Below, piece after piece: positions 26,049 to 64,000 of a stretch of DNA of 64,000 bases. A program made the translations under genes and the position numbers. Origin of the DNA: Candidatus Kuenenia hertensis. Lineage in GTDB: Bacteria; Planctomycetota; Brocadiia; Brocadiales; Brocadiaceae. The notes beneath the pieces are model-generated. The model ran no database searches. It was not told where the DNA came from and saw only the letters and a program-made list of their open reading frames with translations. The DNA lies in contig SOET01000005.1 of assembly GCA_021646465.1 (NCBI GenBank), positions 1-64,000 on the forward strand, given 5' to 3'. The first letter of the stretch is position 1; the number at the start of each line of letters is the position of its first letter.

Positions 26049-27356
26049 ATGAAATTCCCAAAATTTTTCCTGAGAACAAACATCCCCATCATTGGCGCGG
26101 ATAAACAATGCATAGGAAAAATCCCTTCCCGAGTAGCAAGAGAACTGATCAAATCAAACCATGCACGGATAGTACGCAACCATCCGCCTGTCATCGGATT
26201 GGAACATACAAAAAGCAAAAGACCTCCGCCTGAGAGGACTGTTGCAAAAAACCCGCTTAAAAATATCATAAGCGCCGCCTGCCTGTTTATTCCCGGCAAA
26301 TCTTACAAGCGGATTCTCAATACAATTCTGTTTCAGACGGTAAATAAAAGACTGTGCATAACCGCAACAGACCTTGAGTCATGTTTTACCGGTTATCTGG
26401 AACTAGAAAATCTGTTTACTTTTGCATGTGACGGCGCCGATGCCATATGTATTAATGCAGATAGTCTGAAAAAAATACTTTTCCGTTGTGATAAAATAAA
26501 CCATTTGACCATTTCTGGTGGCAATAAACCAGGTTTGCAGATTGATTCTTTTTTCATTGAAGGCACACCTGCCGATGAATTTCCGGAAATACCTCTTCCA
26601 AATGGAAAACAGTATGCGTGTGCCATAGACGATATTGCGAAAAAACTCGCCTTTGTAAGCCTCGCATTATCTTCCAGCAGGTACAATGGTCCATTTTCGG
26701 GGATATACTTTGATGGGAAACACGGACAAATGGTCTGTACCGATGGAAACCGGCTGCATATGGCGCCTCTCGGCGGAAAAGGGAATTTAGGTGCATCCGT
26801 AATAGTTCCACCAACGCTTCTCAAGGTGGCGAAATTTTTAAATGGCTATGTTACGTTTGCAGAACATAAGGATAATAATGAAATACAAACCGATTCAATC
26901 TTCGGTTTAAATATTCCCGGCTGTGCTCACGCTACTGTACGATATCGTTCCATTGAGGGTAGATTCCCTGACTATAGTGAAGTTATTCCCAAAGATTTTG
27001 CAAGTGCGTTTAAGGCTAATACAAAGGAATTGCTTCGGATATTAATTAACGCACAGATGGCAGCTAAGATAAATAATGACCTGGAATCTGTAATTTGCGA
27101 ATTTCGTGATGATCTATTGAAAGTAACCCTGAAACATCATGACACTATTGTCTATTATGGCATGGTGAAAGGGGAATATACCGGCCATAATTACCTTGGG
27201 CAAATGAATATACATTACATTGCTGACTCAATTAAGGACATGCCCTGCGATTCCGTTGAAATAGGATTGCAGAAGATGGCAACCGAGGGATGGGTCATAC
27301 GATGCGCAGGATACGTTGCCATGATAATGCCAATGGATACAGGCAGCAAAAATTAA
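26049..27356 (+). CDS. Sliding-clamp (DnaN-like) protein with N-terminal RRXRR/PLMP-like extension
   Basis: A 435-residue protein. From about residue 65 it reads as a bacterial beta clamp: SLALSSSRYNGPFSGIYFDG, MVCTDGNRLHMAPL, VIVPPTLLKVAKFL and RYRSIEGRFPDYSEVIPKDF followed by KANTKELLRILINAQ are DnaN signatures. The clamp forms a ring around DNA and tethers polymerase. The first 60 residues are not part of a clamp: residues 11-51 read I-P-I-I...K-I-P...V-A-R-E-L-I-K...A-R-I-V-R...P-P-V-I-G-L, which follows the RRXRR/PLMP pattern seen at the start of IscB-like proteins and some HNH proteins. A strong ribosome site (AAAGGAGGT) precedes ATG 26049. The clamp part is probably a mobile-element replicase accessory for the primase on the same element. 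Confidence 0.82.
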   Translation: MKFPKFFLRTNIPIIGADKQCIGKIPSRVARELIKSNHARIVRNHPPVIGLEHTKSKRPPPERTVAKNPLKNIISAACLFIPGKSYKRILNTILFQTVNKRLCITATDLESCFTGYLELENLFTFACDGADAICINADSLKKILFRCDKINHLTISGGNKPGLQIDSFFIEGTPADEFPEIPLPNGKQYACAIDDIAKKLAFVSLALSSSRYNGPFSGIYFDGKHGQMVCTDGNRLHMAPLGGKGNLGASVIVPPTLLKVAKFLNGYVTFAEHKDNNEIQTDSIFGLNIPGCAHATVRYRSIEGRFPDYSEVIPKDFASAFKANTKELLRILINAQMAAKINNDLESVICEFRDDLLKVTLKHHDTIVYYGMVKGEYTGHNYLGQMNIHYIADSIKDMPCDSVEIGLQKMATEGWVIRCAGYVAMIMPMDTGSKN

Positions 27357-48253: not shown

Positions 48254-48386
48254 GAGCATTCCCGATTTTTTGTAAAAAGCCATTAACAAGGCTAATGGTA
48301 ACTCAAGCTTCCAGCCTGAGGGTAAATATCACAAGCAAGATGCTTGCGTTACATTGTGCAGGTAGTTACAAAAATTGGGAATGCTC
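48254..48386. repeat. Inverted repeat overlapping the 5' end of RT-cas1
   Basis: GAGCATTCCCGATTTTTTG (48254-48272) is inversely repeated as ACAAAAATTGGGAATGCTC (48368-48386). Between lies the CAAGATGCTTGCGTTACATT repeat found at two other sites. The repeat covers the annotated first 14 codons of RT-cas1. A third arm, GCGCATTCCCGTTTTTTTTC, lies just after cas2 at 50963-50982. Confidence 0.75.
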
Positions 48387-50680
48387 ACATTAATTCATCA
48401 TTAAAGAAATTGACTGATAACCTCTACCACAAACTTTACGACTCTCGTCTACTCCTCGAATCATGGAATAAAATCAGGAAAAAGGGGTCGATGGGAGGAA
48501 TTGATAATGTCAGCATCGATGAGTTTGAAAGGCATCTCGATACGAACATCGAAAATCTTATTCGGGAATTAAAATCGGAAACGTACATCCCTGAGGCATA
48601 TCAGGAAATAAAAAAACGTAAAAAGAACACAGAATTCAGATTTCTGGGACTTCCGGCGATAAGAGACAAAATCGTTCAACAGGCAGTGTTGTTCATCATA
48701 GAACCCCTCTTTCTTTCCACATTCTTTGATATTAGTTATGCTTACAGGCCAGGCAAAGGGCCTCTCAAGGCAGCACACAGGGTAAGGCATATTATTGTGA
48801 ACCAAAAATGTAAATGGGTGGCGCCCTGTGATATCGATAATTTCTTCGATTCCATTGATCAAACAATACTCATGGAACAATTGAGAGAACAAATCCACGA
48901 TGAAAAACTCCTTTCTATAATTTCATTATGGATAAAGATGGGAAGGGTGGGTCCGGCGCTGGACTGGAAGGATTCCTTGAAGGGCATTCCGCAAGGGGCG
49001 GTAGTTTCTCCGTTATTATCCAATATTTACCTTCATCCCCTTGATGCATACATGGTAAATATGAATTGTGGATACGTTCGTTATGCGGATAATTTTGTTG
49101 TGTTATGCGCTCATAAAAATGCCGCGCAGGATGCGCTTGAAGTTGTGAAAATCTTTTTAGGTGAAAAATTGAAGCTGCAATTAAATCAGGGAAACAGGGT
49201 GCAAAACGTTTGCGAAGGTTTTATTTTTCTCGGCGTCACTTTTCAGGGGCAAACTCTGACAGTTTCGGATTCAAAGATTTCAGAAATAAGAAAAGGTATA
49301 GAAAATACAATAACCCGCAGTAAAGATAACCTGAAAGGGCTTGCAGATATTTTACAGGGTTTAAAACGTTATTACGGGCAATTTCTTTCAGAGGATATTT
49401 TGAGAGAAATTGATATGTTTATAAAGGGCCGTCTGAAAGAGTATTTCAAAGAACGCTATCAAAGCGGGGTATTAAAAACAAAAAGGGAAATAATAAACAT
49501 CCTGCAGCCGGTCTATTTTCTTTCACAGGAGTTTACCCTTTACAGAGGAAAGGTTTTTAAGGAGATACAGGCATATTGCAAAAGGGAAAAACGAAGTGAG
49601 AAGATAAAAAAGAAACCGACAGGCGATCCGGTACAAAATAAGAGGAAATATTATGAAATACTTCAGACACAAAGTTCCGTTCTTATGGTAAACAAGGCAG
49701 GCACTTTTTTAGGGATAAATAAAAATAGCGTAGTAGTGAAGGAAAAGGGGAAAAAGATTCACCAGTCACCGATAAACCATTTGAAGACGATTATATTGAA
49801 ATCGAAAGGGATTGGGGTCTCTTCGCATCTTATTCACACATGTGCTGATAAGGGTATCGATTTAGAGTTTCTGGCGTATGAAAAACATGTGGCAAGAATA
49901 GTTCCTTTCAGAGAGCATCGGGCAGAACTCTGGATTGCACAGATGGAGTCGTTACATGACCACCGTGGAGTTCATCTCGCCAGGGCATTTGTGAAAGGGA
50001 AAATAAAGAATCAGAGATCCCTCATTTTGTATTTCAGCAAATATCATTCTAAGAAAGACCCGGCATTTGCGGAAATGCTTAGGGTGGGTATTTCCTGCCT
50101 GGATAATTTGATCAAAGAGGTGTCTCATTATACGGATATATCCCTTGATACACTCAGAGGAAAACTCTTTTCTGTCGAGGGAAGGGCTTCCTCCACGTAT
50201 TGGAATTTGGTGAAAACACTTCTCGGCGATGAAATATCTTTTGTGGGCAGGGTAAGAAAGGGGGCTGAAGACCTTGTCAATGCCCTTTTAAATTACGGTT
50301 ATGGCATCCTGTACGGAAGGGTTTCGCAAGCCCTTATGGCAGAGGGATTGAATCAGTATATTGGTTATCTGCACAAGACGGGAAATGGCAGACCGGTGCT
50401 GGTCTTTGATTTTATTGAGGAATTCCGCCAGCAAATTGTTGACCGGGTAGTGCTGGGTCTGCTCAGAAAAGGCGCTCATCTGAGTGTGAAAGACGGTGTG
50501 CTTTCCGATGAAACCAGAAACAAGCTTGCAAGAAAAGTACTGGAGCGGATATACACTCATGAAAACTTCAGAGGGAAACGGATACGGGGGGATGAAATCA
50601 TGAGATATCAGGCGAAAAATATTGTCTGTTATCTTACCGGAAAAACGAAGAGATATCGTTCGTATATAAGGAAATGGTAA
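48344..50680 (+). CDS. cas1: Reverse transcriptase-Cas1 fusion
   Basis: A 778-residue fusion. Residues about 22-300 are a group II intron-like reverse transcriptase: NFFDSIDQTI with the first acidic motif (DIDNFFDS, 163-170), IPQGAVVSPLLSNIYL (216-230) and the catalytic loop YVRYADN (244-250). The usual YADD is YADN here. A helical linker (300-440) leads to Cas1 (about 442-778), which keeps its catalytic set: E612 in VEGRASSTYW, H677 in GYLHK and the acidic cluster in VFDFIEEFRQQIVDRVV (687-703). Such fusions acquire spacers, in studied cases also from RNA. Start is uncertain: the first codons (TTG 48344) lie inside a dispersed repeat, and no ATG occurs until residue 50; TTG 48410 (LTDNLYHKL) fits family N-termini. 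It is followed at once by cas2. Confidence 0.93.
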   Translation: MRYIVQVVTKIGNAHINSSLKKLTDNLYHKLYDSRLLLESWNKIRKKGSMGGIDNVSIDEFERHLDTNIENLIRELKSETYIPEAYQEIKKRKKNTEFRFLGLPAIRDKIVQQAVLFIIEPLFLSTFFDISYAYRPGKGPLKAAHRVRHIIVNQKCKWVAPCDIDNFFDSIDQTILMEQLREQIHDEKLLSIISLWIKMGRVGPALDWKDSLKGIPQGAVVSPLLSNIYLHPLDAYMVNMNCGYVRYADNFVVLCAHKNAAQDALEVVKIFLGEKLKLQLNQGNRVQNVCEGFIFLGVTFQGQTLTVSDSKISEIRKGIENTITRSKDNLKGLADILQGLKRYYGQFLSEDILREIDMFIKGRLKEYFKERYQSGVLKTKREIINILQPVYFLSQEFTLYRGKVFKEIQAYCKREKRSEKIKKKPTGDPVQNKRKYYEILQTQSSVLMVNKAGTFLGINKNSVVVKEKGKKIHQSPINHLKTIILKSKGIGVSSHLIHTCADKGIDLEFLAYEKHVARIVPFREHRAELWIAQMESLHDHRGVHLARAFVKGKIKNQRSLILYFSKYHSKKDPAFAEMLRVGISCLDNLIKEVSHYTDISLDTLRGKLFSVEGRASSTYWNLVKTLLGDEISFVGRVRKGAEDLVNALLNYGYGILYGRVSQALMAEGLNQYIGYLHKTGNGRPVLVFDFIEEFRQQIVDRVVLGLLRKGAHLSVKDGVLSDETRNKLARKVLERIYTHENFRGKRIRGDEIMRYQAKNIVCYLTGKTKRYRSYIRKW

Positions 50681-50959
50681 ATGAAAAACTATACGGTAAT
50701 TGCCTATGATATTGCGGACGATAAGAGAAGACAACGGGTAGCTGAATTACTGGCCGGGCATGGGAAAAGGATTAATTACAGCGTATTTCAATGTCTTCTT
50801 ACAAAAAAAAGCCTTGAAAAGATACGGAATAAGATAAAGGCTATGATTGATAAAAAAACCGATACTGTTGTGTACTATATTCTTTGTAAGGATTGCTTTT
50901 CAAAAACGTTTATTGACGGTTTTTTTAATAATGATACTAACGTGGTAAATATGATTTAA
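50681..50959 (+). CDS. cas2: CRISPR-associated Cas2
   Basis: A 92-residue Cas2. N-terminal strand with the conserved Asp: MKNYTVIAYDIADDKRRQR, then LAGHGKRINYSVFQCLL, both family signatures. With Cas1 it forms the spacer-integration complex. The ATG follows the RT-cas1 stop directly (TAAATG), indicating a translationally coupled pair. Confidence 0.95.
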   Translation: MKNYTVIAYDIADDKRRQRVAELLAGHGKRINYSVFQCLLTKKSLEKIRNKIKAMIDKKTDTVVYYILCKDCFSKTFIDGFFNNDTNVVNMI

Positions 50960-51407: not shown

Positions 51408-52024
51408 GTTTCAGTACCGCGAACGGCCTAATGTATCCCAAATGGCTTCAAGGCCATTCTCGCCGAGATCTTGGCAAAGGGTTTCAGTACCGCGAACGGC
51501 CTAATGTATCCCAAATATTGCCGAAGGCGTTTTTGATGAAAATGGCAGTATAAATAGTTTCAGTACCGCGAACGGCCTAATGTATCCCAAATAATAGTAG
51601 CAACTTCGCTCTTGCTGACGGGATTAGGTTTCAGTACCGCGAACGGCCTAATGTATCCCAAATATTATAGACAAAGAAAATACTATCGCGTGCGCTACGA
51701 TGTTTCAGTACCGCGAACGGCCTAATGTATCCCAAATACTATGTAGGATACATGCAAGACTGGGACGCAAAGGTTTCAGTACCGCGAACGGCCTAATGTA
51801 TCCCAAATAGGACACACTCACCGCGAAGGAGATGCGTAACGGGGTTTCAGTACCGCGAACGGCCTAATGTATCCCAAATAGCTGGCAATCGCCCTCACGA
51901 ACAAGACCCCTGACGAGTTTCAGTACCGCGAACGGCCTAATGTATCCCAAATAAGCGTTTCTGAGAAGCGATTATAAAATCCAAAAAGGTTTCAGTACCG
52001 CGAACGGCCTAATGTATCCCAAAT
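51408..52024 (-). CRISPR. CRISPR array: 9 repeats of 36 bp, 8 spacers
   Basis: Nine identical 36-base repeats start at 51408, 51481, 51557, 51628, 51702, 51773, 51844, 51917 and 51989 (+ strand form GTTTCAGTACCGCG...TAATGTATCCCAAAT). Spacers are 37, 40, 35, 38, 35, 35, 37 and 36 bases. Read on the - strand the repeat ends in GGTACTGAAAC, the ACTGAAAC-type 8-base handle of type III crRNAs, so transcription is most likely from the - strand with the leader at the high-coordinate side. A promoter at 52052-52083 supports this. No degenerate repeat is seen at either end. cas6 lies 650 bases to the right, cas2 450 bases to the left. Confidence 0.97.
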
Positions 52025-52051
52025 CCCGCTACCTTCAAGGGATATTGGTGT

Positions 52052-52083
52052 ATCATATAAACATCTCCAGCGTGAAAAGTCAA
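52052..52083 (-). promoter_or_regulatory. Probable promoter of the CRISPR array
   Basis: On the - strand TTGACT (52083-52078) is followed after 18 bases by TATATG (52059-52054; an overlapping TATGAT is at 52057-52052). Transcription would start about 52045 and enter the first repeat at 52024 after a short leader. This is the only good sigma70-like pair next to the array on either side that I could find by eye. Confidence 0.6.
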
Positions 52084-52117
52084 GCCATATTTGTACTTAG
52101 CATTATTCATCAGTTTT

Positions 52118-52473
52118 TTCGCAAATCGATGCTTTTTTCATGCAAAAATCTAGCAAATGGACATTCCGTTTTCTGTAAGTTGTTTTCTGTCAACAATCTC
52201 CTGCTGAAAAAAACTTCGCAAATTCATTTCACCAATCGTGTGCAAAGTGGATTTGCGAAAAATGCCAATACGGCATCCTCATTTTATGCGGGTTTCATGG
52301 GCGGCAATGGTGCGTTTTTTCGCAAATTGTTTCTCTGTTTTTCAAAAAAAATGGCATTTGCGAACTTTTTTGCGATATGTTTTGCTCGCATATTCCGGTG
52401 AAATTCATCCTTAACACATTACTACATAATGGTTTTTAACCGTTAGTCATCGCCATACCATTTTTTCGCAAAT
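52118..52473. promoter_or_regulatory. Cluster of six TTCGCAAAT sites upstream of the array promoter
   Basis: The 9-mer TTCGCAAAT occurs at 52118-52126, 52215-52223, 52319-52327 and 52465-52473, and its complement ATTTGCGAA at 52251-52259 and 52356-52364. Three of the direct copies have a TTTTTTCGCAAAT context. Six copies in 356 bases cannot be chance in this base composition. The whole 52025-52567 stretch has no convincing gene; a 129-codon + frame there has no ribosome site. Sites lie 35 to 390 bases upstream of the array promoter. They could bind a regulator or be part of the leader used for spacer integration. Confidence 0.7.
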
Positions 52474-52567
52474 CATTTTTTATCACCTGTTTTAAAAATA
52501 CAAACGCAATCCCTTGTTATTTATTGACTTATCTTCTATGCTGAATCAACCGCATGGTGTTGCAAGG

Positions 52568-52665
52568 CAATGTCATTAAGTTAAGCTACCGGCGGCAAAA
52601 GTCCCCCTTAAAAAAGGGGGATTCAGGGGGTTGTTTTGATAAATCAATCCTTAACTTAATGACAT
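52568..52665. repeat. Nested palindromic repeat, copy C
   Basis: CAATGTCATTAAGTTAAG ... CTTAACTTAATGACAT around the same core as copy A (AGTCCCCCTTAAAAAAGGGG). Lies between the leader region and the 3' end of cas6. Confidence 0.85.
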
Positions 52666-52677
52666 GGTGTTGCAAGG

Positions 52678-53661
52678 CTAAAGACCTTGCCCTACATGAC
52701 TAATGTTTTTTACTATGCGGTATTTTCCCAAGCCGAAGGTTGCAGCCTTTCCCACGTGAAGATATTCGCCAACCCTCAGCAGCGGGAAATATTTTTGGAT
52801 GTTGCCTTTATAAATTATTATGCTTTGCCAGCCTCCCCATGTCATTTCCGCTTTGTGGCTGCCGGAGTATCTTTTCCAGTCGGCCCACTTGAGATTATCA
52901 GTTACGGTTTCCACGGTTCCGGCAGATTCGGTAAAAGCCATGTGATCTGCCATCTCCGCACCACAATAAAAATGGGCAAGCAGAAATGCCCTCTCCGCCA
53001 ATCTCTCTATGAGAAGCTGAAAAGGGACGTCCGGCGTAAGTTCATCATGCTGTTTTATTCTCACCTGAGTCTCAAAAAAAATGCCGATCTTATCGGGAGC
53101 GTGCATGGTATTTTCGAATGTCTCGTAACGGATTTCACTGGTTGTCTGCTTCAGCTCGCCGGTATGTCCGCAAAAAATCTGCTGCGCGGCACCGTCAGCA
53201 TCGATTGCTTCCACCGTAACTACGTCGAACCTCCCTCTGTTCTTTCCCAGCCCCATCCTGCCCATTTCGATAAAAGCTAAAATAAAGTAAGAGAGGTATT
53301 TATTGCTTAACCCGACAAGGGTAATATTAAAGGCAAAGGGTTCATCCGGAGAAAACTGTCTTTTTTTCGTAAGCGGCGGAACCATGATATAAGGGCGGGG
53401 CGGGGTTTTGTATTTTGCCGCGTGAGGGTAATCATCTGCTACAGGCGATCCCATAAGAAGTGAGTAGACGCATTGCAACCTGAGCCGGCAGCCATCACAC
53501 TCCGCATGCCTTGTCTGACAAACAATAGTCCTCAAAGCGCGCCCAAAAACACCCCGGAAAACGTTGCCCTTGTATGGCGGCAAGACGATCTCCTCCCTTG
53601 CGCAAAGGTTTATCCTGTACCGGCAGAAATAAAGATGTTTTAAGGGAGTATCATCACCCAT
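52678..53661 (-). CDS. cas6: CRISPR-associated endoribonuclease Cas6
   Basis: A 327-residue Cas6, which cuts the array transcript within repeats. The N-terminal ferredoxin half carries VLPPYKGNVFRGVFGRALRT and a Cys cluster CDGCRLRLQCVYSLLMGSP, as in type III Cas6 proteins. The C-terminal half ends with the family glycine-rich loop YLHVGKAATFGLGKYRIV. First gene rightwards of the array; transcribed towards it. Length normal. Confidence 0.9.
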   Translation of the reverse strand: MGDDTPLKHLYFCRYRINLCAREEIVLPPYKGNVFRGVFGRALRTIVCQTRHAECDGCRLRLQCVYSLLMGSPVADDYPHAAKYKTPPRPYIMVPPLTKKRQFSPDEPFAFNITLVGLSNKYLSYFILAFIEMGRMGLGKNRGRFDVVTVEAIDADGAAQQIFCGHTGELKQTTSEIRYETFENTMHAPDKIGIFFETQVRIKQHDELTPDVPFQLLIERLAERAFLLAHFYCGAEMADHMAFTESAGTVETVTDNLKWADWKRYSGSHKAEMTWGGWQSIIIYKGNIQKYFPLLRVGEYLHVGKAATFGLGKYRIVKNISHVGQGL

Positions 53662-55215: not shown

Positions 55216-56788
55216 TTATAACCTGATAGTATCCGTCTCAAGATACTCGTTTATCACAAGGGAAAGTACCTGCCGTTCTACATGGTTTAGTAAAATATTT
55301 TTTTGCTGAAGGGATAAAAAGCTTGAAACAAATCCCTGTCTTATAAGTTTTAATATCTCCCATTTGCTTAATCCTCCTTCAGTCAACTGGCACGCCTTCA
55401 AGTATTCGTCTGTTAAATTTGTTCGGGAGATGCCACGATTATCAGTATTTATGGTTACTCCTACCCCTTCCTGCAAATAATGCTGCAAAGGGTATGTTTC
55501 TTTGTCCGTTGATTGATTCGCAGCAAGGGTTGTATTGCTAAAATCACGATACGTGCACGTTTTTACATTGGATGTCGGGCACATTTCCAGAGCAACATGA
55601 AAATCGCGAAGGTACTCGATCATTCTTTTGTTTTGGTACAACTTCAAACCATGTCCAATCCGTTTCGCGTGGAGACAATACAGCGCTTCCCATATGTTAT
55701 CACTGCTTTCCGTCTCTCCGGCATGGATCGTTATTTTTATAAAATGGTTCCGAAATATCCTCCCCGGATAAAAGACTTAACTGTACGGCATTTGTCGGGA
55801 AAACTGGCAGGTTTGGCGCTGTTTGCCGGTAATGTTCTCTTAAATGGCACAATGGATGGCCATTTGTCGCATCGCTCTTTTTTTTGAGCGCGTCGGGCAA
55901 TGGATTATTCCGGAGCGCATTCCGTACCGACGTCATCCCTTCTTTCCAACGTTCGGGCAAATGAGGGTCCGATGCTATTGTTTCTGCGATGGTTTTTAGA
56001 TCACGGGGGCCTGCTGCCCCGCCAAAATGACAGTGCAGATCTGTCTTGGGCAAGGAGCGCAGCCAGTCATAATCCCTTTGCGCAGAACTGTTATTTGCCC
56101 CGATCTTTTCCGACTTAAGACGTTGGATGAGCGAGAGCGGCAAGGAATACAGGGCGGAAAAGTTCCGGATTAATTCCGGTTGTTCAGGGTGTATTATATA
56201 AGAAACATTTCCTTGTTTTTCCGGTGAATCATCTTCAGGTAAACGGTATCGCCGCCTTAAAAAAGTGGAAAGCGGATACCAGTTCACCGTCAGATATTCC
56301 GGGTGGTTTCGGATAATCTGGTAATCCTTCAGTCCCGTATGGTTTTTTCTTAATTGGTAAAAATCCCGTGGCAGGGTAAGTGAGAGGTATCCCTGGAATC
56401 CAAAGATATAACCGGCTTCAACCATTCTCTGGGTAATATCCTTTCTGCCCGCCGATGATAAAATCAAATCTGCCTCCTGGTATTGCTCAAACGCGGCAAA
56501 GACCTTGTCACGAATGTTTTCTTCATCATCCCTGCTTCTGATATCACTGACCATAAGGTCAATGCACGACACCCTGATTTGAGGATATTCCCGGCAAATA
56601 ATTATTTTAAGGTCTTGAAAAACAGGGAATGTCTCTTTTGTGCAAAACAAAACGATTTCATCCAGGGATTTCGTAAATTGTTTTTTTGTGTTTTGTGCGC
56701 TTTCCGCGTAAGCATAGCTGCCACTCAGGAAATCAACCATTTCCATGATAACGTCATAATTTTCTCCAAGTGCGGTGAATAGTTTCAT
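55216..56788 (-). pseudogene. CARF-adenosine deaminase effector (Cad1-like), split by a one-base frameshift
   Basis: Two frames form one protein. Frame 1 (56788-55700) has an N-terminal CARF-like domain (MKLFTALGENYDVIMEMVDF...DLILSSAGRKDITQRM, about 1-200) and the start of an adenosine deaminase domain with the zinc motif H252-x-H254 in PKTDLHCHFGGAAG. It stops early. The other frame continues FYK-ITIHAGETESSD, RIGHGLKLY, LEMCPTSN and VTINTDNRGIS: all deaminase signatures (HAGE, RIGHG, CPTSN, NTD). Removing one A from the A5 run (T5 on + at 55734-55738) joins them in frame to about 523 residues. CARF-deaminases bind cyclic oligoadenylate and deaminate adenosine nucleotides. Between HxH and HAGE only about 100 residues lie, against nearly 200 in standard deaminases, so a deletion or compaction is also likely. 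Confidence 0.82.
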
Positions 56789-56791
56789 AGT

Positions 56792-59176
56792 CTATTGTTT
56801 TCGCAAAGAAGATTTCACTTCTGATGGTCTGGGCAATATCTTTCTCTCAGTGAATTCATTCTTTCCATGTTCATTCTTAATTTGCATATATTTGGTTTTT
56901 TCGTCATCCGGTTTATTTTGAAAATCGAGCATGGTCTTTAATTCCTTCATCCTGTCCACTTCCCATAATTTTTTTACCGGGTCATCCGTTTTTCCCTGAC
57001 CGGTTTTTCCCAATATATATTCTGCAAATTTCTTTTTAAAATGGAGGATATTTTCCCCTTCCGATGTTGATTCAGGTACTGATTCCTCCCACTCTGCAAA
57101 AAGGGTTTCGTACCGGTCCTTCCGTTTCGACAAAAAGAGTTTTGGGGTAATTTCTACAGATCCCAGACCAAGCGGTTTGCCCATGCCGAGCTTATGGCAA
57201 CAGCCATCGGGTAACTGTAAGGCAAAAAGGATCGCACCCAGTTCCACATCAGAGAGGTTTTCGAAGCGGATTTTTCCGGTAAAGGTATTATTTGCTTCTA
57301 CCGGCTTAATGCGGGTATGTTGTTTTTCATATTTGCCAACGGCCCTAACGATAGCATCCTTGAGATTTGACGGCAAATTAATAAGTGAAACGGCGATTTT
57401 GTTTCTTTGTCTTTCAATATGCGCCTGAAACAAATCTATGGTTATGGAATTGTCTCTGAGTACTGCATTGAAATCATTTTCCCAAAAGGTAAGTTTGTCT
57501 TCTTCCCATTGAGATTGTTCTCCGGTTTTATGCCAATAGAGTTTATTTCCTCGCAACAGGGTATCGTCATTATATTTCTGCAATCCCCTGTAACCCTCTT
57601 CTGGATAAGTTTCGTAAGTAATGGTCTGATTTTGTTCCAGATAATGCTGGAAAGTGGTGGGTTTGGGCGTAGACAAAATTTTAGGGACATATTCTGCTAA
57701 TCCTCTCTGATTTACATCCTTTAAACCGGCATCCTCAAAAAATACTCTGCCTGCAAATGTTTTCTCGTTACCAAATATGGTCTCTGCAATATCCGGATTA
57801 CTACAATTGCGGTGTGCTGGTGGTAAAAACTCTTCTACTGATTTTCTATAAGCCAAACGGAATAACCCTGTATGACCAAAGGATACCACCTTATTGTTTT
57901 CCTCAATATAAAAACAAGGAACGTCTGAACCATGTCTGCATTTTTTTAACAGTTCTGCATCCTTATCGACTTTGCGATCAGAGTCATTTCTGTAATTTTC
58001 TATAACACCGTCCATAAATTCTAATGGAGTTACCGTATTATCAGCCTCAGCAATAATCCAGTGCATATGTTTTCCACGCGGTCTGCCCTGCATTTTGCCG
58101 CTATGAACAAGGACTCCTTTTATAGGATTTGATAATGTCCCTTTACCGACATCGCTAATATCTGTAACTTTTGCATAATATAATGGTTTTGAGTGATTAT
58201 ATCTTTGGGGTAATACACATAAACATTCCACACTTTTATAACCCATTTTGTATCCATTATTATTCATTGAATTTGTCAAAACACCTTTACTAAGAACTAA
58301 TGATTCCTCTACCCGCGCATACTGTAAATTACTTTGTGGCGTAATTTCTTTTGCCGGTCTAATCTTGTAAGCAGTACCAACTTTAATCAGATAACCTGCT
58401 TTAACCTGCTGATGATGCCCAGTTGTGTCGTTTCCGGTCATCATGCGGGATGTATAATCATTACGCAAATCCAGAGATTTGTCCGCAAAGGAACGGAAAT
58501 GATACTTCTTTTTATGGTCTATAAACTGCATCCGGCTGTAGCTCACCATTTCAACCATTGTCCTCGTCATCCCTCGTAATGAACTCCCCGGTATGCAATG
58601 CTTGCGGCCGGGGGAAAAGAAATCAGGATTGATGTATTTATATTTCTTTTTTTCATCACGCTCCACTTCTTCTTTTTTCTTCATCTCTGCTTTTGTTAAG
58701 GTGTCTCTTATATAAAGCGGGGTTTTGGTTTCAATGGACAGGGAGATATAACCGGTATGCTTATTATGGTGATATACGTTAAAATCGGGAACAGATTCTG
58801 CTTCGACTACCTTGTCATTTAACGGCACAAAATTATAGGGGGCATTTGCAGGTTCTTGTTTATGCATTGTATGATTTCCCTGGATATGAACGTTTCGGGG
58901 CTGGTTAACATTTCTTGCCTGAAAATTTCTCCGTTGAGAATTTTGTACATGGGGTTGTGGAGGTATTTGTGATTTAGAAAATATAGTTTTGCCGTTATAA
59001 ACGACTTTTTCAATTTGCCCCTTTATTCTCTCAACTTCCACCTCTTTTCCATTGAGGGATGCGACGTCAGGATAGTCTCTTATTGAGACTGTCATTTGAC
59101 TATTATTAGCAAAAATTGCTTTAACAATAAAGTCTCCCTTTTTATTTTTCGAAATATCTAACCTCGCTTTTTCCAT
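56792..59176 (-). CDS. TIGR03986-type CRISPR RAMP protein, long paralogue
   Basis: A 794-residue RAMP protein of the TIGR03986 type (name from memory). The first ~70 residues form a small beta-rich domain absent from the paralogue. RAMP marks: GYISLSIETKTPLYIRDTLT, HCIPGSSLRGMTRTMVEMVS, DVPCFYIEENNKVVSFGHTG, ETIFGNEKTFAGRVFFEDAG, PKPTTFQHYLEQ, then CCHKLGMGKPLGLGSVEIT near 645. About 40 percent alike to the next paralogue by eye. It should be a backbone subunit (Cas7-type) of the type III complex. Only 3 bases separate its stop from the CARF effector start. Confidence 0.85.
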   Translation of the reverse strand: MEKARLDISKNKKGDFIVKAIFANNSQMTVSIRDYPDVASLNGKEVEVERIKGQIEKVVYNGKTIFSKSQIPPQPHVQNSQRRNFQARNVNQPRNVHIQGNHTMHKQEPANAPYNFVPLNDKVVEAESVPDFNVYHHNKHTGYISLSIETKTPLYIRDTLTKAEMKKKEEVERDEKKKYKYINPDFFSPGRKHCIPGSSLRGMTRTMVEMVSYSRMQFIDHKKKYHFRSFADKSLDLRNDYTSRMMTGNDTTGHHQQVKAGYLIKVGTAYKIRPAKEITPQSNLQYARVEESLVLSKGVLTNSMNNNGYKMGYKSVECLCVLPQRYNHSKPLYYAKVTDISDVGKGTLSNPIKGVLVHSGKMQGRPRGKHMHWIIAEADNTVTPLEFMDGVIENYRNDSDRKVDKDAELLKKCRHGSDVPCFYIEENNKVVSFGHTGLFRLAYRKSVEEFLPPAHRNCSNPDIAETIFGNEKTFAGRVFFEDAGLKDVNQRGLAEYVPKILSTPKPTTFQHYLEQNQTITYETYPEEGYRGLQKYNDDTLLRGNKLYWHKTGEQSQWEEDKLTFWENDFNAVLRDNSITIDLFQAHIERQRNKIAVSLINLPSNLKDAIVRAVGKYEKQHTRIKPVEANNTFTGKIRFENLSDVELGAILFALQLPDGCCHKLGMGKPLGLGSVEITPKLFLSKRKDRYETLFAEWEESVPESTSEGENILHFKKKFAEYILGKTGQGKTDDPVKKLWEVDRMKELKTMLDFQNKPDDEKTKYMQIKNEHGKNEFTERKILPRPSEVKSSLRKQ

Positions 59177-59402: not shown

Positions 59403-61385
59403 CTATTCTGCCGGTAAAGGATGAACCACGGTAGGCCGTGGTAAAATATTTCTCACCCTAAATTCATTAGGCTCAATCGTCATATACCTGGTTTTTTCAT
59501 CATCACGTACCGTGTCAAAAACAAGCATGGACTTTAATTCCTTCATCCTGTCCACTTCCCATAATTTTGTTTTTGTTTCTTTTATTTCATTAAGGATGTG
59601 TTTCTCAAATTCTTTTTTGAAATATGCAATGTCTTTATTCGGAAAGGCGGATACTGTTAGAGGCCACTCTGCAAACAAATCCGTGTAACGTGTCTCCCGG
59701 TCAGATAGCATTAGCGTTGGAGTAATTTTAACGGAACCCAATCCAATTGGTTTCCCCATACCCAGTTTATGGCAGCAATTGCCTGGCAGTTCCAGGGAAA
59801 ACAAAAGCGCCCCAAGCTCAATATCGGAGAGGTTTTCAAAACGAACATTTCCAACAAAAGTTCTGCCTGATTTTATGGGCCTCATTTTTGTATCAATTTT
59901 TGGATTAAAATCTCCTTGATTATCCTTTTTCCATCGGGCAGACTTATGCCAATAAAGTTTATTACCTCTAATAGCGTTCGATGAATTGTAATGGGCTAAA
60001 TTCCTGGGATGGTTATTCAGGTTTTCTTCTGTCTGTACCAGATAATGTTGAAACGTGGTGGGTTTTGGGCCGAGCAAGGTTTTCGATATTTGTATTTCTT
60101 CATGGTCATCATCGGTAGGATTCTGTAAAAAGGCGTCTTCAAAAAAGACCCGTCCGGCAAATGTCTTTTCATTTCCAAAGATTGCTTCGGTAATATCTAC
60201 TTTCGTCCCATCTTGAAATTCCGGCGGGATGTGTTCACTTATTTTTTTCTCATAGGCAAGCCGAAACATACCTGTATGCCCGAAGGACGTAACCTCCTTC
60301 CGGTCATTGAGAATGTAAAAACAGGGAACACCTGAAGTATAAGCCTTTAATTTTTCAAGGAGGTCTGCCCTTTCATCACGGGAAGAGTCGTCTTTGTATT
60401 CTCTTATTACATTTTCATCAATTGAAATACATTTGTTATCTGGTTCATTAATAACCCAGTGTAAATGCTTCTTTGTGCCAAATTCACCGGATGCAACAAT
60501 AAAACCTTTCTGCGGGTGCGAGGTATCTTTTTTGTCACTTACCGAAGCAAGTTTTGCGTATCTCAGTTTATATGGAACATTAGTTTTTTTATAATTATCC
60601 CATCTATAATGCGTGTGGTCTGATGGTATTACCGGTTGGAAATAGATTTCTCTAAACTCAAAATCAGGCACCACAAAACCTGTTGTTCCGTCTACTACTT
60701 TTGTCGTTTTGTCAAAGTTTATCCTATATATTTGTGTTCCTTTAGAACCGGCAGGAAGGGTTTTCGAGGGGTATATTACATACGATTGATTGAGTTTTTT
60801 TAACACCCCTGCCTTGATGTTGGGGAAACAATTGTTTTTTTTATCCACCATGATATCCATATAATCTGAACCCAGCCTCGAACGGTCTGCGACTGCACGG
60901 AAACACAGCCTTTTATCATCAAAGAATCCGAACTTTCCAAAACTTAGCATCTCAACCATCGTCCTTATCATGCCCCGCAAAGAGCTTCCCGGGATGCGAA
61001 CCTTTTTGCCGGGAGAAAAGAAATCGGGATTTACGCGGTTCTTTTCCCCATTGTACTCAAGCATCTCTTTCCCGTCTAATGTATCTCTGATATAAAGTGG
61101 TGTTTTGGTTTCTATGGTTAGTTTGATGTATCCGGTATATTTAGATGTATGATATCGGTCGAAGGCACACTCACCTTTACCGGGTATCTCTTTAGAGATG
61201 ACTATTTTATTATTCAACGGAACAAAATTGTAAGGCGCTGTTGCCTGCCTTCCAGTGGGGATATGGGCTATATGGTTTATTTGTAAATCCTCTTGACTCA
61301 TTTGGGTAGAATGCTGGTTTGGGTCAAGCGTTACCCCGAAATTTTTCTTTGCAATCTTAGCAAGAGCTTCTTTCCAATCAGACAT
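59403..61385 (-). CDS. TIGR03986-type CRISPR RAMP protein, short paralogue
   Basis: A 660-residue paralogue of the 794-residue protein. Shared blocks in the same order: GYIKLTIETKTPLYIRDTLD, RIPGSSLRGMIRTMVEMLSF, GVPCFYILNDRKEVTSFGHT, TEAIFGNEKTFAGRVFFEDA, GPKPTTFQHYLVQ, CCHKLGMGKPIGLGSVKITP. It lacks the extra N-terminal beta domain, and the block before CCHKLGM is shorter. The pair arose by tandem duplication and has diverged widely, so the two probably occupy different positions in the complex. Confidence 0.85.
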   Translation of the reverse strand: MSDWKEALAKIAKKNFGVTLDPNQHSTQMSQEDLQINHIAHIPTGRQATAPYNFVPLNNKIVISKEIPGKGECAFDRYHTSKYTGYIKLTIETKTPLYIRDTLDGKEMLEYNGEKNRVNPDFFSPGKKVRIPGSSLRGMIRTMVEMLSFGKFGFFDDKRLCFRAVADRSRLGSDYMDIMVDKKNNCFPNIKAGVLKKLNQSYVIYPSKTLPAGSKGTQIYRINFDKTTKVVDGTTGFVVPDFEFREIYFQPVIPSDHTHYRWDNYKKTNVPYKLRYAKLASVSDKKDTSHPQKGFIVASGEFGTKKHLHWVINEPDNKCISIDENVIREYKDDSSRDERADLLEKLKAYTSGVPCFYILNDRKEVTSFGHTGMFRLAYEKKISEHIPPEFQDGTKVDITEAIFGNEKTFAGRVFFEDAFLQNPTDDDHEEIQISKTLLGPKPTTFQHYLVQTEENLNNHPRNLAHYNSSNAIRGNKLYWHKSARWKKDNQGDFNPKIDTKMRPIKSGRTFVGNVRFENLSDIELGALLFSLELPGNCCHKLGMGKPIGLGSVKITPTLMLSDRETRYTDLFAEWPLTVSAFPNKDIAYFKKEFEKHILNEIKETKTKLWEVDRMKELKSMLVFDTVRDDEKTRYMTIEPNEFRVRNILPRPTVVHPLPAE

Positions 61386-61461: not shown

Positions 61462-61671
61462 TTAAGGCACGTTGTAAAAATAGCTGATACGTTTGAGAAT
61501 GTTTTCAACTCCACTATAAAATTGCGCCATAAAAGCGGAGGCGGCAGTTTTTTCACGGACAGTCGGCTCTCTATCTGCCATATCCTTTCGCAACAAAGAC
61601 AATTCCTGCAAAACTGTCTCTATCGATTCCAGCTCAATATTTATCTCCTCTTTAAGCTCATCAGATGTCAC
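61462..61671 (-). CDS. HEPN-type protein, truncated (partner of nucleotidyltransferase)
   Basis: A 69-residue helical protein: LKEEINIELESIETVLQELS, FMAQFYSGVENILKRIS. This is the N-terminal half of the HEPN family that pairs with minimal nucleotidyltransferases (usually 110-140 residues). The frame ends with YFYNVP then TAA, just where relatives continue with the second helix pair and the R-x4-6-H catalytic site, which is therefore missing. Start overlaps the nucleotidyltransferase stop by 4 bases. Probably non-toxic. Confidence 0.7.
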   Translation of the reverse strand: MTSDELKEEINIELESIETVLQELSLLRKDMADREPTVREKTAASAFMAQFYSGVENILKRISYFYNVP

Positions 61672-61937
61672 AGTAAAACCTTCCCCTTAGTTTTAATGTA
61701 TTCCGTAAACCTGGTTGTCGGGCTTAATGGAACTATATCCAGTGACCTTCCCAATTCATCTTCGAGCTTTGCCGCAAATTCAAATAGCTTCCAACCAGGG
61801 ATTCCATCACAGGCAATATCTATATCATTTGCCTCATCTGGTTTTTCCGCAGCGCTTCCAAAAAGGATCAGGCGTGTCGCGCCATAAGTCTTTGCGAGGG
61901 TACAGATCCTTTCTATTTGAGCCTTATGAATTGCCAT
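61668..61937 (-). CDS. Minimal nucleotidyltransferase (MNT antitoxin family)
   Basis: An 89-residue nucleotidyltransferase from ATG 61937 (RBS GGGAGA; an in-frame TTG lies at 61949). The catalytic signature is LILFGSAAEKPDEANDIDIA (G-S-x9-D-x-D), with the third acidic residue in SLDIVPLS. In HEPN/MNT pairs it AMPylates or otherwise neutralises the HEPN toxin. Here it sits inside the type III operon, between csx19 and a RAMP gene, all in the same direction. Confidence 0.85.
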   Translation of the reverse strand: MAIHKAQIERICTLAKTYGATRLILFGSAAEKPDEANDIDIACDGIPGWKLFEFAAKLEDELGRSLDIVPLSPTTRFTEYIKTKGKVLL

Positions 61938-61954
61938 AATTTCTCCCAAAATAT

Positions 61955-62527
61955 CTAAGTCAGTTCTTTACCATTATTCCAGAATCCCATAAACCTGCAA
62001 TCCACATACGTTGCCTGATTAACTTCATTATAATCAATGTAATTCCTGGTCTTGATAAAGACCCTGTTTCTTTTATCATCAACGCTTAGATTAGAAAAAG
62101 GCAGGGTCAATTCTGTCCCTCTGGTTTCGGTAATTTTTGTAAAACCGCTATCCGGTGGTTCTGCCTTTGTTCCGAATAGTACCTGTTCAGCATCAACAAC
62201 GAAGGTTTCTTTTCCTTCTTCGTCGGTACGATATCTTCCCCTCATTCCATCAGATGAACGCCACAAGTATAATTCCTGTGTCTGGTTAAATACACGGAGT
62301 TTCTGGATGTGTTTTGGGTCAAATTTTTCATCTTTATAAAAGTGAAATACCCCGTTTTCAAATGTTCCGATGAGTACCTTATAATCAAGGTATGCAACGA
62401 TATAAGATTTAACCGATATTCTGGCAGATATACATTTTTCGAAATCTTCGATGTCTTTGTTTTTCACAGGAAAGGGAATTGACTTAGATTTTATCTCGCG
62501 TAATTGCAGTCCGTTAGCTTCTCTCAT
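61955..62527 (-). CDS. csx19: CRISPR-associated Csx19 (TIGR03984-like)
   Basis: A 190-residue protein that matches Csx19 as I remember it: YIVAYLDYKVLIGTFENGVF, RVFNQTQELYLWRSSDGMRG and RYRTDEEGK, then FVDCRFMGFWNNGKELT. Csx19 is a marker of subtype III-D, where it is a subunit of the effector complex. The gene overlaps the Cas7-like gene by 14 bases; GAAGGAGGAAGC precedes its start. Identification rests on family memory, not on a search. Confidence 0.75.
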   Translation of the reverse strand: MREANGLQLREIKSKSIPFPVKNKDIEDFEKCISARISVKSYIVAYLDYKVLIGTFENGVFHFYKDEKFDPKHIQKLRVFNQTQELYLWRSSDGMRGRYRTDEEGKETFVVDAEQVLFGTKAEPPDSGFTKITETRGTELTLPFSNLSVDDKRNRVFIKTRNYIDYNEVNQATYVDCRFMGFWNNGKELT

Positions 62528-63875
62528 GTGCTTCCTCCTTAAAATCTTTCAGGGCAGTAATGAATTTTTCCAATTGCTCTTTATTCTCAGAAGAAAGCCC
62601 TGCAAACCCCTCTTCCAATGTTACCGTGGTATTATCCCACGTAATATCTGCCCTGACACCCTCAAACACACCCCTGCCAACAGCCTTTTCGCCGCCAACA
62701 GCAAGGTCACCCGTCCACAGGTCTTTCAAAACCAAAAGCATCAGGCCTGCCTCATGGTCTTCATAATCTCTAATGGTTATCTTGACGTCCTTAATTTGTT
62801 TATTTTTGTCATCATCCGCAAAAAGAGGCATAGTCTCAAACAGGGCGGTTTCAATTGTGCCGCCGGTAAAGCGGTCGATTTTGATTCGGGTTTGGAGTTC
62901 GGAAGAAAAGTTTGGCAAAAGGGTTTCATCTACACGAACTTTGCCCTTTACTGCTCTTTTTGAACTATTTTTTTCGTCTACATCCCCAAACAATCTGGTA
63001 AGAACCAGTTTTGATTTCTCTATCTTGTTATCAAATACGGTATTCAAAATCCGTTCTGCCCTTGAACGAATGACACCCTTAAGCGAAGCGCCTGTTAAAA
63101 CAAAATCATTCCCGGATTTAATGCTCACGGCATCGGGCGCCTTTGGGTCTGCCGAATATGAACGGCTGATAAAAGAATTTTTTAACCGGAATATTGTATT
63201 TATAGTAAAGACACCATTTGCAATGTTAAAAGGTACTTCTGTAAATGGATTTGGGGTAGAAAAATCCTTTTTAAGCCACTGTAGTACATCTGTCTTTTTG
63301 CTGAAATTAAATTCGCACACATGAGAATCTGAAAGCCTTATTTTCCCCAAACCGCTGTTTGTTTTAGCCCCTATTTGAATGCTTTCCATTTCAAGCGCCT
63401 TACGAATTGTTGCAATCATCTGCCTGGCAAAACTTTTGTTGCTATCTGTGAGGTTTACTCCCAAATTAAGCCTGAATTTTGCTCCACGCTCAACAACCTG
63501 GTAATCGTACTTTGCGCCCTTTGCGACAATGCCATTCTTGTTGTCGATTTCGATTCCATCGCGCACAACCGGTTTGTCACTACCGCTTATAAGTGTTAAA
63601 TCTGAGCAACAGAGGGAACTCTGCTGCTCAACTTCTTTTTCTGAAATTTTTTCTTCAGAAGTGAACCCCCAGAAACGTTTCAGATCGTCTTTATAGGAAT
63701 CATCTAACTTAATGAAATGTTTCAGTACACCAACAAGTGATGTTGCAGGGATAAAGGGTTTGCCATCTACATCGTGTAACACATCAACATCGGTATGATC
63801 ATCCCTTCCACTGCCGATCAGTGTTGGTGAAAGGAGTTCAATTGTCCCCTGTAATACGATTTTTCCACCTGCCAT
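62514..63875 (-). CDS. cas7: Double-RAMP Cas7-type protein (Csm3-like, Cas7-2x)
   Basis: A 453-residue protein with two RAMP domains in tandem. First: KIVLQGTIELLSPTLIGSGR, then FIPATSLVGVLKHFI (IPATSLVG is the Csm3-like loop) with an acidic cluster DDHTDVDVLHDVD in the region that cleaves target RNA. Second: FRLKNSFISRSYSA, then LTGASLKGVIRSRAERILN and IDRFTGGTIETALFE, the Csm3-type end. Fused Cas7 domains are typical of III-D complexes. Start ATG 63875. It follows an upstream gene whose stop is 7 bases away. Confidence 0.85.
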   Translation of the reverse strand: MAGGKIVLQGTIELLSPTLIGSGRDDHTDVDVLHDVDGKPFIPATSLVGVLKHFIKLDDSYKDDLKRFWGFTSEEKISEKEVEQQSSLCCSDLTLISGSDKPVVRDGIEIDNKNGIVAKGAKYDYQVVERGAKFRLNLGVNLTDSNKSFARQMIATIRKALEMESIQIGAKTNSGLGKIRLSDSHVCEFNFSKKTDVLQWLKKDFSTPNPFTEVPFNIANGVFTINTIFRLKNSFISRSYSADPKAPDAVSIKSGNDFVLTGASLKGVIRSRAERILNTVFDNKIEKSKLVLTRLFGDVDEKNSSKRAVKGKVRVDETLLPNFSSELQTRIKIDRFTGGTIETALFETMPLFADDDKNKQIKDVKITIRDYEDHEAGLMLLVLKDLWTGDLAVGGEKAVGRGVFEGVRADITWDNTTVTLEEGFAGLSSENKEQLEKFITALKDFKEEAHERS

Positions 63876-63881
63876 ATCAAT

Positions 63882-64000
63882 TTACTCCTTCTTCAGAATC
63901 CTTCTCATTTCTGAGAAGAACGATAAGAAATAGGTACGATAGAGTTCTTCTTCAAATTTCCTGACACCATCTTGATCAATACCGGCGTTATCCCAGAGAC
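63882..64000 (-). CDS. C-terminus of an upstream effector gene (runs off window)
   Basis: 38 codons and a TAA (63882-63884) are visible: LWDNAGIDQDGVRKFEEELY then RTYFLSFFSEMRRILKKE. The gene continues beyond the right edge. Position directly upstream of the Cas7-type gene with a 6-base gap suggests a core subunit; Cas10 would be expected somewhere here, but 38 residues do not prove which. Confidence 0.5.
   Translation of the reverse strand, partial: LWDNAGIDQDGVRKFEEELYRTYFLSFFSEMRRILKKE

Follow-up and report, generated by a model that had tools for sequence, protein, structure and literature searches.

Spaced inverted boxes in a type III-D CRISPR leader accompany one Cas1 clade and probably serve spacer acquisition

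A 64,000-nucleotide stretch of Candidatus Kuenenia hertensis, a member of an anammox-type planctomycete family, the Brocadiaceae (contig SOET01000005.1, positions 1 to 64,000; hereafter the window), carries an array of clustered regularly interspaced short palindromic repeats (CRISPR), the leader of which contains a cluster of the 9-mer TTCGCAAAT, first noticed by a reader of the DNA letters alone (the original prediction). The array is flanked by a plus-strand operon of Cas2 and a fusion of reverse transcriptase (RT) with Cas1, and by a minus-strand operon of Cas6, Csx3 and type III-D RAMP proteins, which continues past the window end at 64000. The array and the principal genes are located as follows.

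48344..50680, plus strand: RT-Cas1 fusion of 778 aa, with RVT_1 and Cas_Cas1 in one protein
50681..50959, plus strand: Cas2, adjoining RT-Cas1
51408..52024, minus strand: CRISPR array of 9 identical 36-nt repeats, ATTTGGGATACATTAGGCCGTTCGCGGTACTGAAAC on the CRISPR RNA (crRNA) strand
52678..53661, minus strand: Cas6
56792..59176, minus strand: Cas7-like RAMP protein (III-D model), with relatives at 59403-61385 and 62514-63875
61955..62527, minus strand: Csx19 (E 2.5e-37), which marks the locus as type III-D

From these predicted proteins, namely Csx19, the III-D RAMP proteins (E values of 1e-110 to 1e-169 with Cas7_IIId models), RT-Cas1 and Cas2, the locus is classified as a type III-D CRISPR-Cas system with RT-Cas1 adaptation. 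The minus-strand repeat ends in CTGAAAC and, therefore, the leader lies on the side that the original prediction had named, and not where an array on the opposite strand would place it. The leader is composed of the following elements.

52025..52473, minus strand: leader, consisting of the promoter-proximal part and the box array; 52026-52137 is also found as a 90% identical orphan copy
52054..52083, minus strand: candidate promoter facing the array, with TTGACT at 52078-52083, TATATG at 52054-52059 and an 18-bp spacer
52118..52126, plus strand: box 1, 94 bp from the repeat edge, retained in the orphan leader copy as TTCGCAAAC
52215..52223, plus strand: box 2, 97 bp from box 1
52251..52259, minus strand: box 2', forming an inverted pair with box 2, with the cores 37 bp apart
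52319..52327, plus strand: box 3, direct
52356..52364, minus strand: box 4, forming an inverted pair with box 3, with the cores 38 bp apart; CTTTTTT comes next, as in locus L085
52465..52473, plus strand: box 5, distal single box

The six sites (four direct and two inverted) are all exact and occupy 356 bp at 52118-52473, that is, 94-449 bp from the first repeat, with T6-prefixed copies at 52114, 52315 and 52461, in full agreement with the original description. The claim that such clustering exceeds chance also held: the window contains 7 copies of TTCGCAAAT against 1.45 expected, a number reached in none of 100 shuffles, and the maximal clustering of a 9-mer was 3, both in Markov versions of the window and in 3000 Markov versions of the local 535 bp. 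Other four-letter 9-mers outside the array were present in at most 2 copies per 360 bp, save those overlapping TTCGCAAAT. The motif had been thought absent from the rest of the window, which proved correct except for one copy at 27093 on the minus strand. Genome searches yielded 77 copies in 4.17 Mb, compared with 35 for the reversed control, and 5 of the 77 represent one repeated sequence at contig starts. The even spread through the genome that would have spoken against the prediction was thus not seen; TTCGCAAAT is at background level outside the cluster, and the phenomenon is one of local clustering, not of dispersal. For the 12-mer TTTTTTCGCAAA, there are 8 genomic copies, of which 3 are in the cluster and 1 is in the orphan copy of the same leader, and each of the remaining four is inside an open reading frame, and no array was observed there. 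The orphan leader, with one degenerate repeat, is located at about 80,920-81,077 of the contig (L071:16920-17077) and is 90% identical to 52001-52137; it retains box 1 as TTTTTTCGCAAAC and has lost all distal parts. It may be either a relic of a second array belonging to this system or the seed of one.

The repeats might be supposed to act as RNA hairpins or terminators in the leader transcript, since the plus strand of segment 52205-52270 folds into a stable hairpin (z = -4.2), and a perfect 9-bp stem in the orphan leader contains its box 1. However, that hairpin is formed by the antisense strand, the window sequence interrupts the stem that is perfect in the orphan, the other window sites fold no better than shuffles (not significant), and direct boxes 95-99 bp apart are unable to form such stems. 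With no Rfam match and no conserved structure in addition, this explanation is very improbable.

To this can be added the conservation of the boxes in other loci. The original prediction knew of no described leader with such repeated sites, but the same boxes, with the consensus AAAAwTTCGCAAAyC, were found beside arrays in at least seven phyla (Planctomycetota, Bacteroidota, Acidobacteriota, Campylobacterota, Deinococcota, Chloroflexota and Actinomycetota). In RT-Cas1 leaders, box 1 lies about 80-110 bp from the first repeat and a second direct box 95-99 bp further, as do boxes 1 and 2 of the window at 95 and 192 from the array edge. Boxes are usually arranged in inverted pairs 35-38 bp apart, and so are the TCGCAA cores of the window at 52216/52253 and 52320/52358; in RT-Cas1 leaders, one or two pairs are followed by a distal single box, over about 400 bp in all. 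The sites are listed below by their distance from the array edge (>, direct; <, inverted).

Window: 95>, 192>, 229<, 296>, 334<, 442>
L176: 108> (TCTCAA), 205>, 241<, 317>, 354<, 435>
L084: 91>, 190>, 303>, 340<, 438>
L085: 91>, 190>, 405>, 443<, 539>
L095: 105>, 202>, 313>, 350<, 433>
L096: 105>, 204>, 256>, 305>, 342<, 400>

The rigid intervals are that between boxes 1 and 2 (96-99 bp, or 95-96 bp in Arcobacter) and that within the inverted pair (35-38 bp), and the others vary. L084 and L085, from two other genera of the family, have RT-Cas1 and five boxes each beside arrays with a different repeat; they are of type III-E, encoding a gRAMP-like protein of 1791-1812 aa and Csx30, and their DNA beyond box 2 is unalignable except for the boxes themselves, which stand out as a footprint. 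In L192, the RT-Cas1 of which is 49% identical to that of Blastocatellia (L093), the box sequence differs, being TTTTCGAAAATC at 97>, 193>, 230<, 326>, 363< and 469>, and the geometry is kept. A motif-blind template search on the leader side flagged the window, L176, L084, L095, L096 and L192 and none of about 58 other flanks; because the template was derived from the flagged loci, there is some circularity in the search, from which only the L192 motif and the negatives are free. L192, L195-L199 and L213-L214 were not used for setting the template. L085 just missed it because of an extra 100 bp, and L093 failed. As side observations, no Cas2 was detected within the roughly 20 kb covered of L084 and L085, both of which have RT-Cas1, and in L084 a zinc-finger anti-sigma domain is fused to the C-terminal part of Csx30, beside a sigma factor gene.

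The recurrence of the arrangement beside unrelated arrays also bears on whether the cluster arose by chance or is left over from a mobile element, for example as TnsB-type or insertion sequence ends. The repeated contig-start sequence accounts for five genomic 9-mers, and a dispersed element of 118 bp, resembling a miniature inverted-repeat transposable element, adjoins the cluster at 52560-52677, between Cas6 and the boxes, with near copies across the genome and in most genomes of the family. However, this element contains no box, the contig-start sequence has only the 9-mer in common, and the cross-phylum conservation already refutes such an origin, leaving it a negligible probability. A comparison of the whole leader DNA with 59 relatives yielded matches to the 118-bp element and part of the leader and to nothing else, because the spacers between boxes do not align. 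A search of phages gave no match for either the leader or Cas1. Three apparent occurrences were set aside: a pattern scan of IMG/VR gave 33 matches with three boxes, all lacking a fourth at 97-99 bp, which were taken as chance; a pair in contig G000:C62 has no array and lies in what looks like ordinary protein-coding sequence, which we take to be trigger factor followed by clpP, and was likewise attributed to chance; and the "boxes" of L109 are a 7-bp microsatellite.

The box architecture is independent of effector and repeat. Boxed loci have effectors of subtypes III-A (L176, L195), III-B (L096/L178, L196), III-D (window, L095) and III-E (L084, L085), boxes also occur with a cas3-type I system, and the repeats are unrelated among boxed loci, with no covariation between pair spacing and repeat length. 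Two Arcobacter plasmids, L195 with a Csm effector (III-A) and L196 with a Cmr effector (III-B), provide a natural experiment on effector exchange with retention of the boxes: their RT-Cas1 proteins are 68% identical and their effector operons and repeats differ, whereas both have the same four boxes, TTGCGAACTTTT, at spacings of 95-96, 113 and 96 bp. In Deinococcus gobiensis, Herpetosiphon and Rubrobacter, Cas1 proteins of the clade without RT adjoin leaders with inverted pairs 35-36 bp apart; the first two of these loci are of cas3 type I, and no effector was seen in that of Rubrobacter. Arrays with the same repeat as the window were found neither in 392 Planctomycetota genomes nor in genome and viral contig collections.

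What the boxes do accompany is one Cas1 clade, with or without a fused RT. Among the proteins encoded across eight boxed loci, RT-Cas1 was the sole universal one (8/8), followed by Cas2 (6/8) and Cas6 (5/8), and the window Cas1 falls inside the clade in a tree of Cas1 domains (clade support 98/94). The exact pair TCGCAA...TTGCGA at 35-38 bp occurs 13 times in fifteen clade loci, always within the 500-bp array flanks; it was found nowhere else in the 324 kb of these loci, in none of 104 control flanks and nowhere in 547 kb of control loci. When one mismatch was tolerated, all 20 pairs were within clade flanks, and control flanks contained 1 in 104 against 1.08 expected. A search for the clade Cas1 in the 392 Planctomycetota genomes revealed two new loci, both with the pair beside the leader-repeat junction: an exact 36-bp pair in L214, where a single repeat-like unit is left, and a 36-bp pair with one mismatch in L213 (both are included in the counts above). 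In a tree built from 33 Cas1 domains, the distribution of the box required 2 changes (1 gain and 1 loss) compared with 10.0 for shuffled labels, and none of 500 shuffles was as low; since near copies in the tree set make the shuffles easy to beat, the weight rests on the seven phyla.

These results allow the two functions offered by the original prediction, an operator of crRNA synthesis and a leader element in acquisition, to be weighed. As operators, the boxes would be bound cooperatively, with looping, by a transcription factor that sets the rate of crRNA synthesis from a promoter between box 1 and the first repeat. The boxes in the window do lie directly upstream of a promoter-like sequence, and regulators that act by looping typically have several operators with inverted pairs; moreover, Csa3a of Sulfolobus recognises a motif in the distal leader, and both activates transcription of the CRISPR locus and promotes adaptation (PMC9456107). 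The TTGACT-18-TATATG sequence is as originally described in sequence, spacer and orientation, but it is only a 9/12 match and was not flagged by a promoter scan. The operator function is weakened because the boxed loci have no regulator gene in common, the recurrent genes being only RT-Cas1, Cas2 and Cas6, and because the boxes survive the exchange of the whole effector module, as in Arcobacter. A host regulator would also not be expected to track Cas1, which the boxes follow over seven phyla, and we consider this function unlikely. The acquisition element is, by contrast, strongly favoured, as boxes and spacing are conserved and the integrase is the sole consistent partner.

The boxes could serve acquisition and yet be recognised by a DNA-bending or nucleoid protein of the host, similar to HU or integration host factor (IHF), or by an unlinked accessory factor rather than by Cas1-Cas2. 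IHF has that role in types I-E and I-F (PMC12259127), and exact IHF-like sites are present between boxes 1 and 2 in 3 of 10 RT-Cas1 leaders, compared with about 1.3% of background segments, at the following distances from the array in loci of different phyla.

L085: 149
L192: 154
L095: 174

The sites were noticed after the fact and give a hint of assisted bending. However, the box differs from the IHF consensus, WATCAANNNNTTR, for which the window leader has no exact site, and a universal host protein would explain neither the restriction to one clade nor the altered box of L192. A host reader is, accordingly, about as doubtful as the operator function, and perhaps slightly more so.

Taken together, the cluster is probably the distal part of the CRISPR leader, offering the (RT-)Cas1-Cas2 integrase several sites at which to dock during spacer acquisition, and the boxes probably help the Cas1 of this clade to locate the insertion site. 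Because the boxes track the integrase, hold their spacing and co-vary with the Cas1 lineage, docking of Cas1-Cas2 or of a co-travelling factor is the most economical explanation. The (RT-)Cas1-Cas2 of the clade, or a partner arriving with it, would bind several boxes simultaneously, and the bound complex would fold the leader and be delivered by it to the first repeat, in which case box binding would matter for integration. We lean slightly towards the wider proposal that all Cas1 integrases of this branch, whether or not fused to RT, and in several type III subtypes as well as type I, recognise their arrays through inverted box pairs that co-evolve with them and keep a fixed spacing; this leader code would be distinct from the system of IHF and upstream motif. 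Several points weigh against the docking function. An RT-Cas1 sub-clade (L189, L190 and L191) has no boxes, which is the one loss on the tree; the geometry is not uniform, with the extra ~100 bp of L085, the partial fit of L093 and the single one-mismatch pair of L213; and the first seven loci were found by their resemblance to the window, which makes the template partly circular. Furthermore, a long leader is not required by every RT-Cas1, because the purified enzymes of Marinomonas MMB-1 and Thiomicrospira, which stand outside the set compared here for clade and boxes, integrate in vitro with leaders of 20-163 bp (PMC11014452, PMC8102632). Those leaders likewise belong to RT-Cas1 type III arrays, and we found no box array described for them.

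The layout of the boxes resembles that of the arm-type sites of lambda-type phage integrases, which are several short sites at fixed spacing, some inverted, distant from the point of integration; these serve a tyrosine recombinase and not Cas1, and the likeness is one of analogy only. In types I-E and I-F, leader DNA upstream of the first repeat guides Cas1-Cas2 to the junction by bending, with IHF and an upstream motif (PMC12259127). Boxed leaders would similarly direct the integrase by upstream DNA, but they differ in having many clade-specific boxes, in pairs 35-38 bp apart over about 400 bp, a non-IHF box and a different Cas1 clade. In type I-A of Sulfolobus islandicus, a leader-distal motif (-143 to -94) is needed for efficient acquisition with Csa3a (PMC9456107); the distal position is shared, whereas that motif is single and read by a CRISPR-specific regulator, and no linked gene of this kind is common to the boxed loci. 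The sites of the type III-E CASP-sigma, which are sigma-factor promoters of cas1 and other genes (PMC10028731), are also DNA sites in III-E CRISPR loci, but boxes are found in III-A, III-B, III-D and type I loci without Csx30 as well; Csx30 is present in L084 and L085 and was not found among the window proteins searched. We found no description of the box array in the literature, and a 2025 survey of leader motifs (doi 10.1089/crispr.2024.0093), outside that search, may list the motif.

How type III and RT-Cas1 integrases choose the right repeat is largely open, and a conserved, Cas1-linked box code offers direct and testable DNA targets and includes cultured hosts with known plasmid sequences (Arcobacter cloacae, Deinococcus gobiensis, Herpetosiphon and Rubrobacter). 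Such a code would help in orienting arrays, in assigning orphan arrays to an integrase and in building RNA-recording devices with a full instead of a truncated leader, and, if true, would permit the pairing of array and integrase to be predicted from DNA alone.

Other features of the genome and locus are recorded here. A second RT-Cas1 is encoded at L073:1653-3959 (G000 contig C31) and shares 63% identity with the III-E type of protein in L084; the 26 kb inspected around the gene revealed neither an array nor boxes. A gene for a Cad1-like CARF-adenosine deaminase, at 55216-56788 on the minus strand, is in two reading frames encoding a CARF part of 362 aa and a deaminase part of 143 aa, and is apparently frameshifted. 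Inside the type III operon, at 61462-61949 on the minus strand, two small adjoining open reading frames resemble, as judged by eye from their translations, a HEPN/MNT (nucleotidyltransferase) pair.
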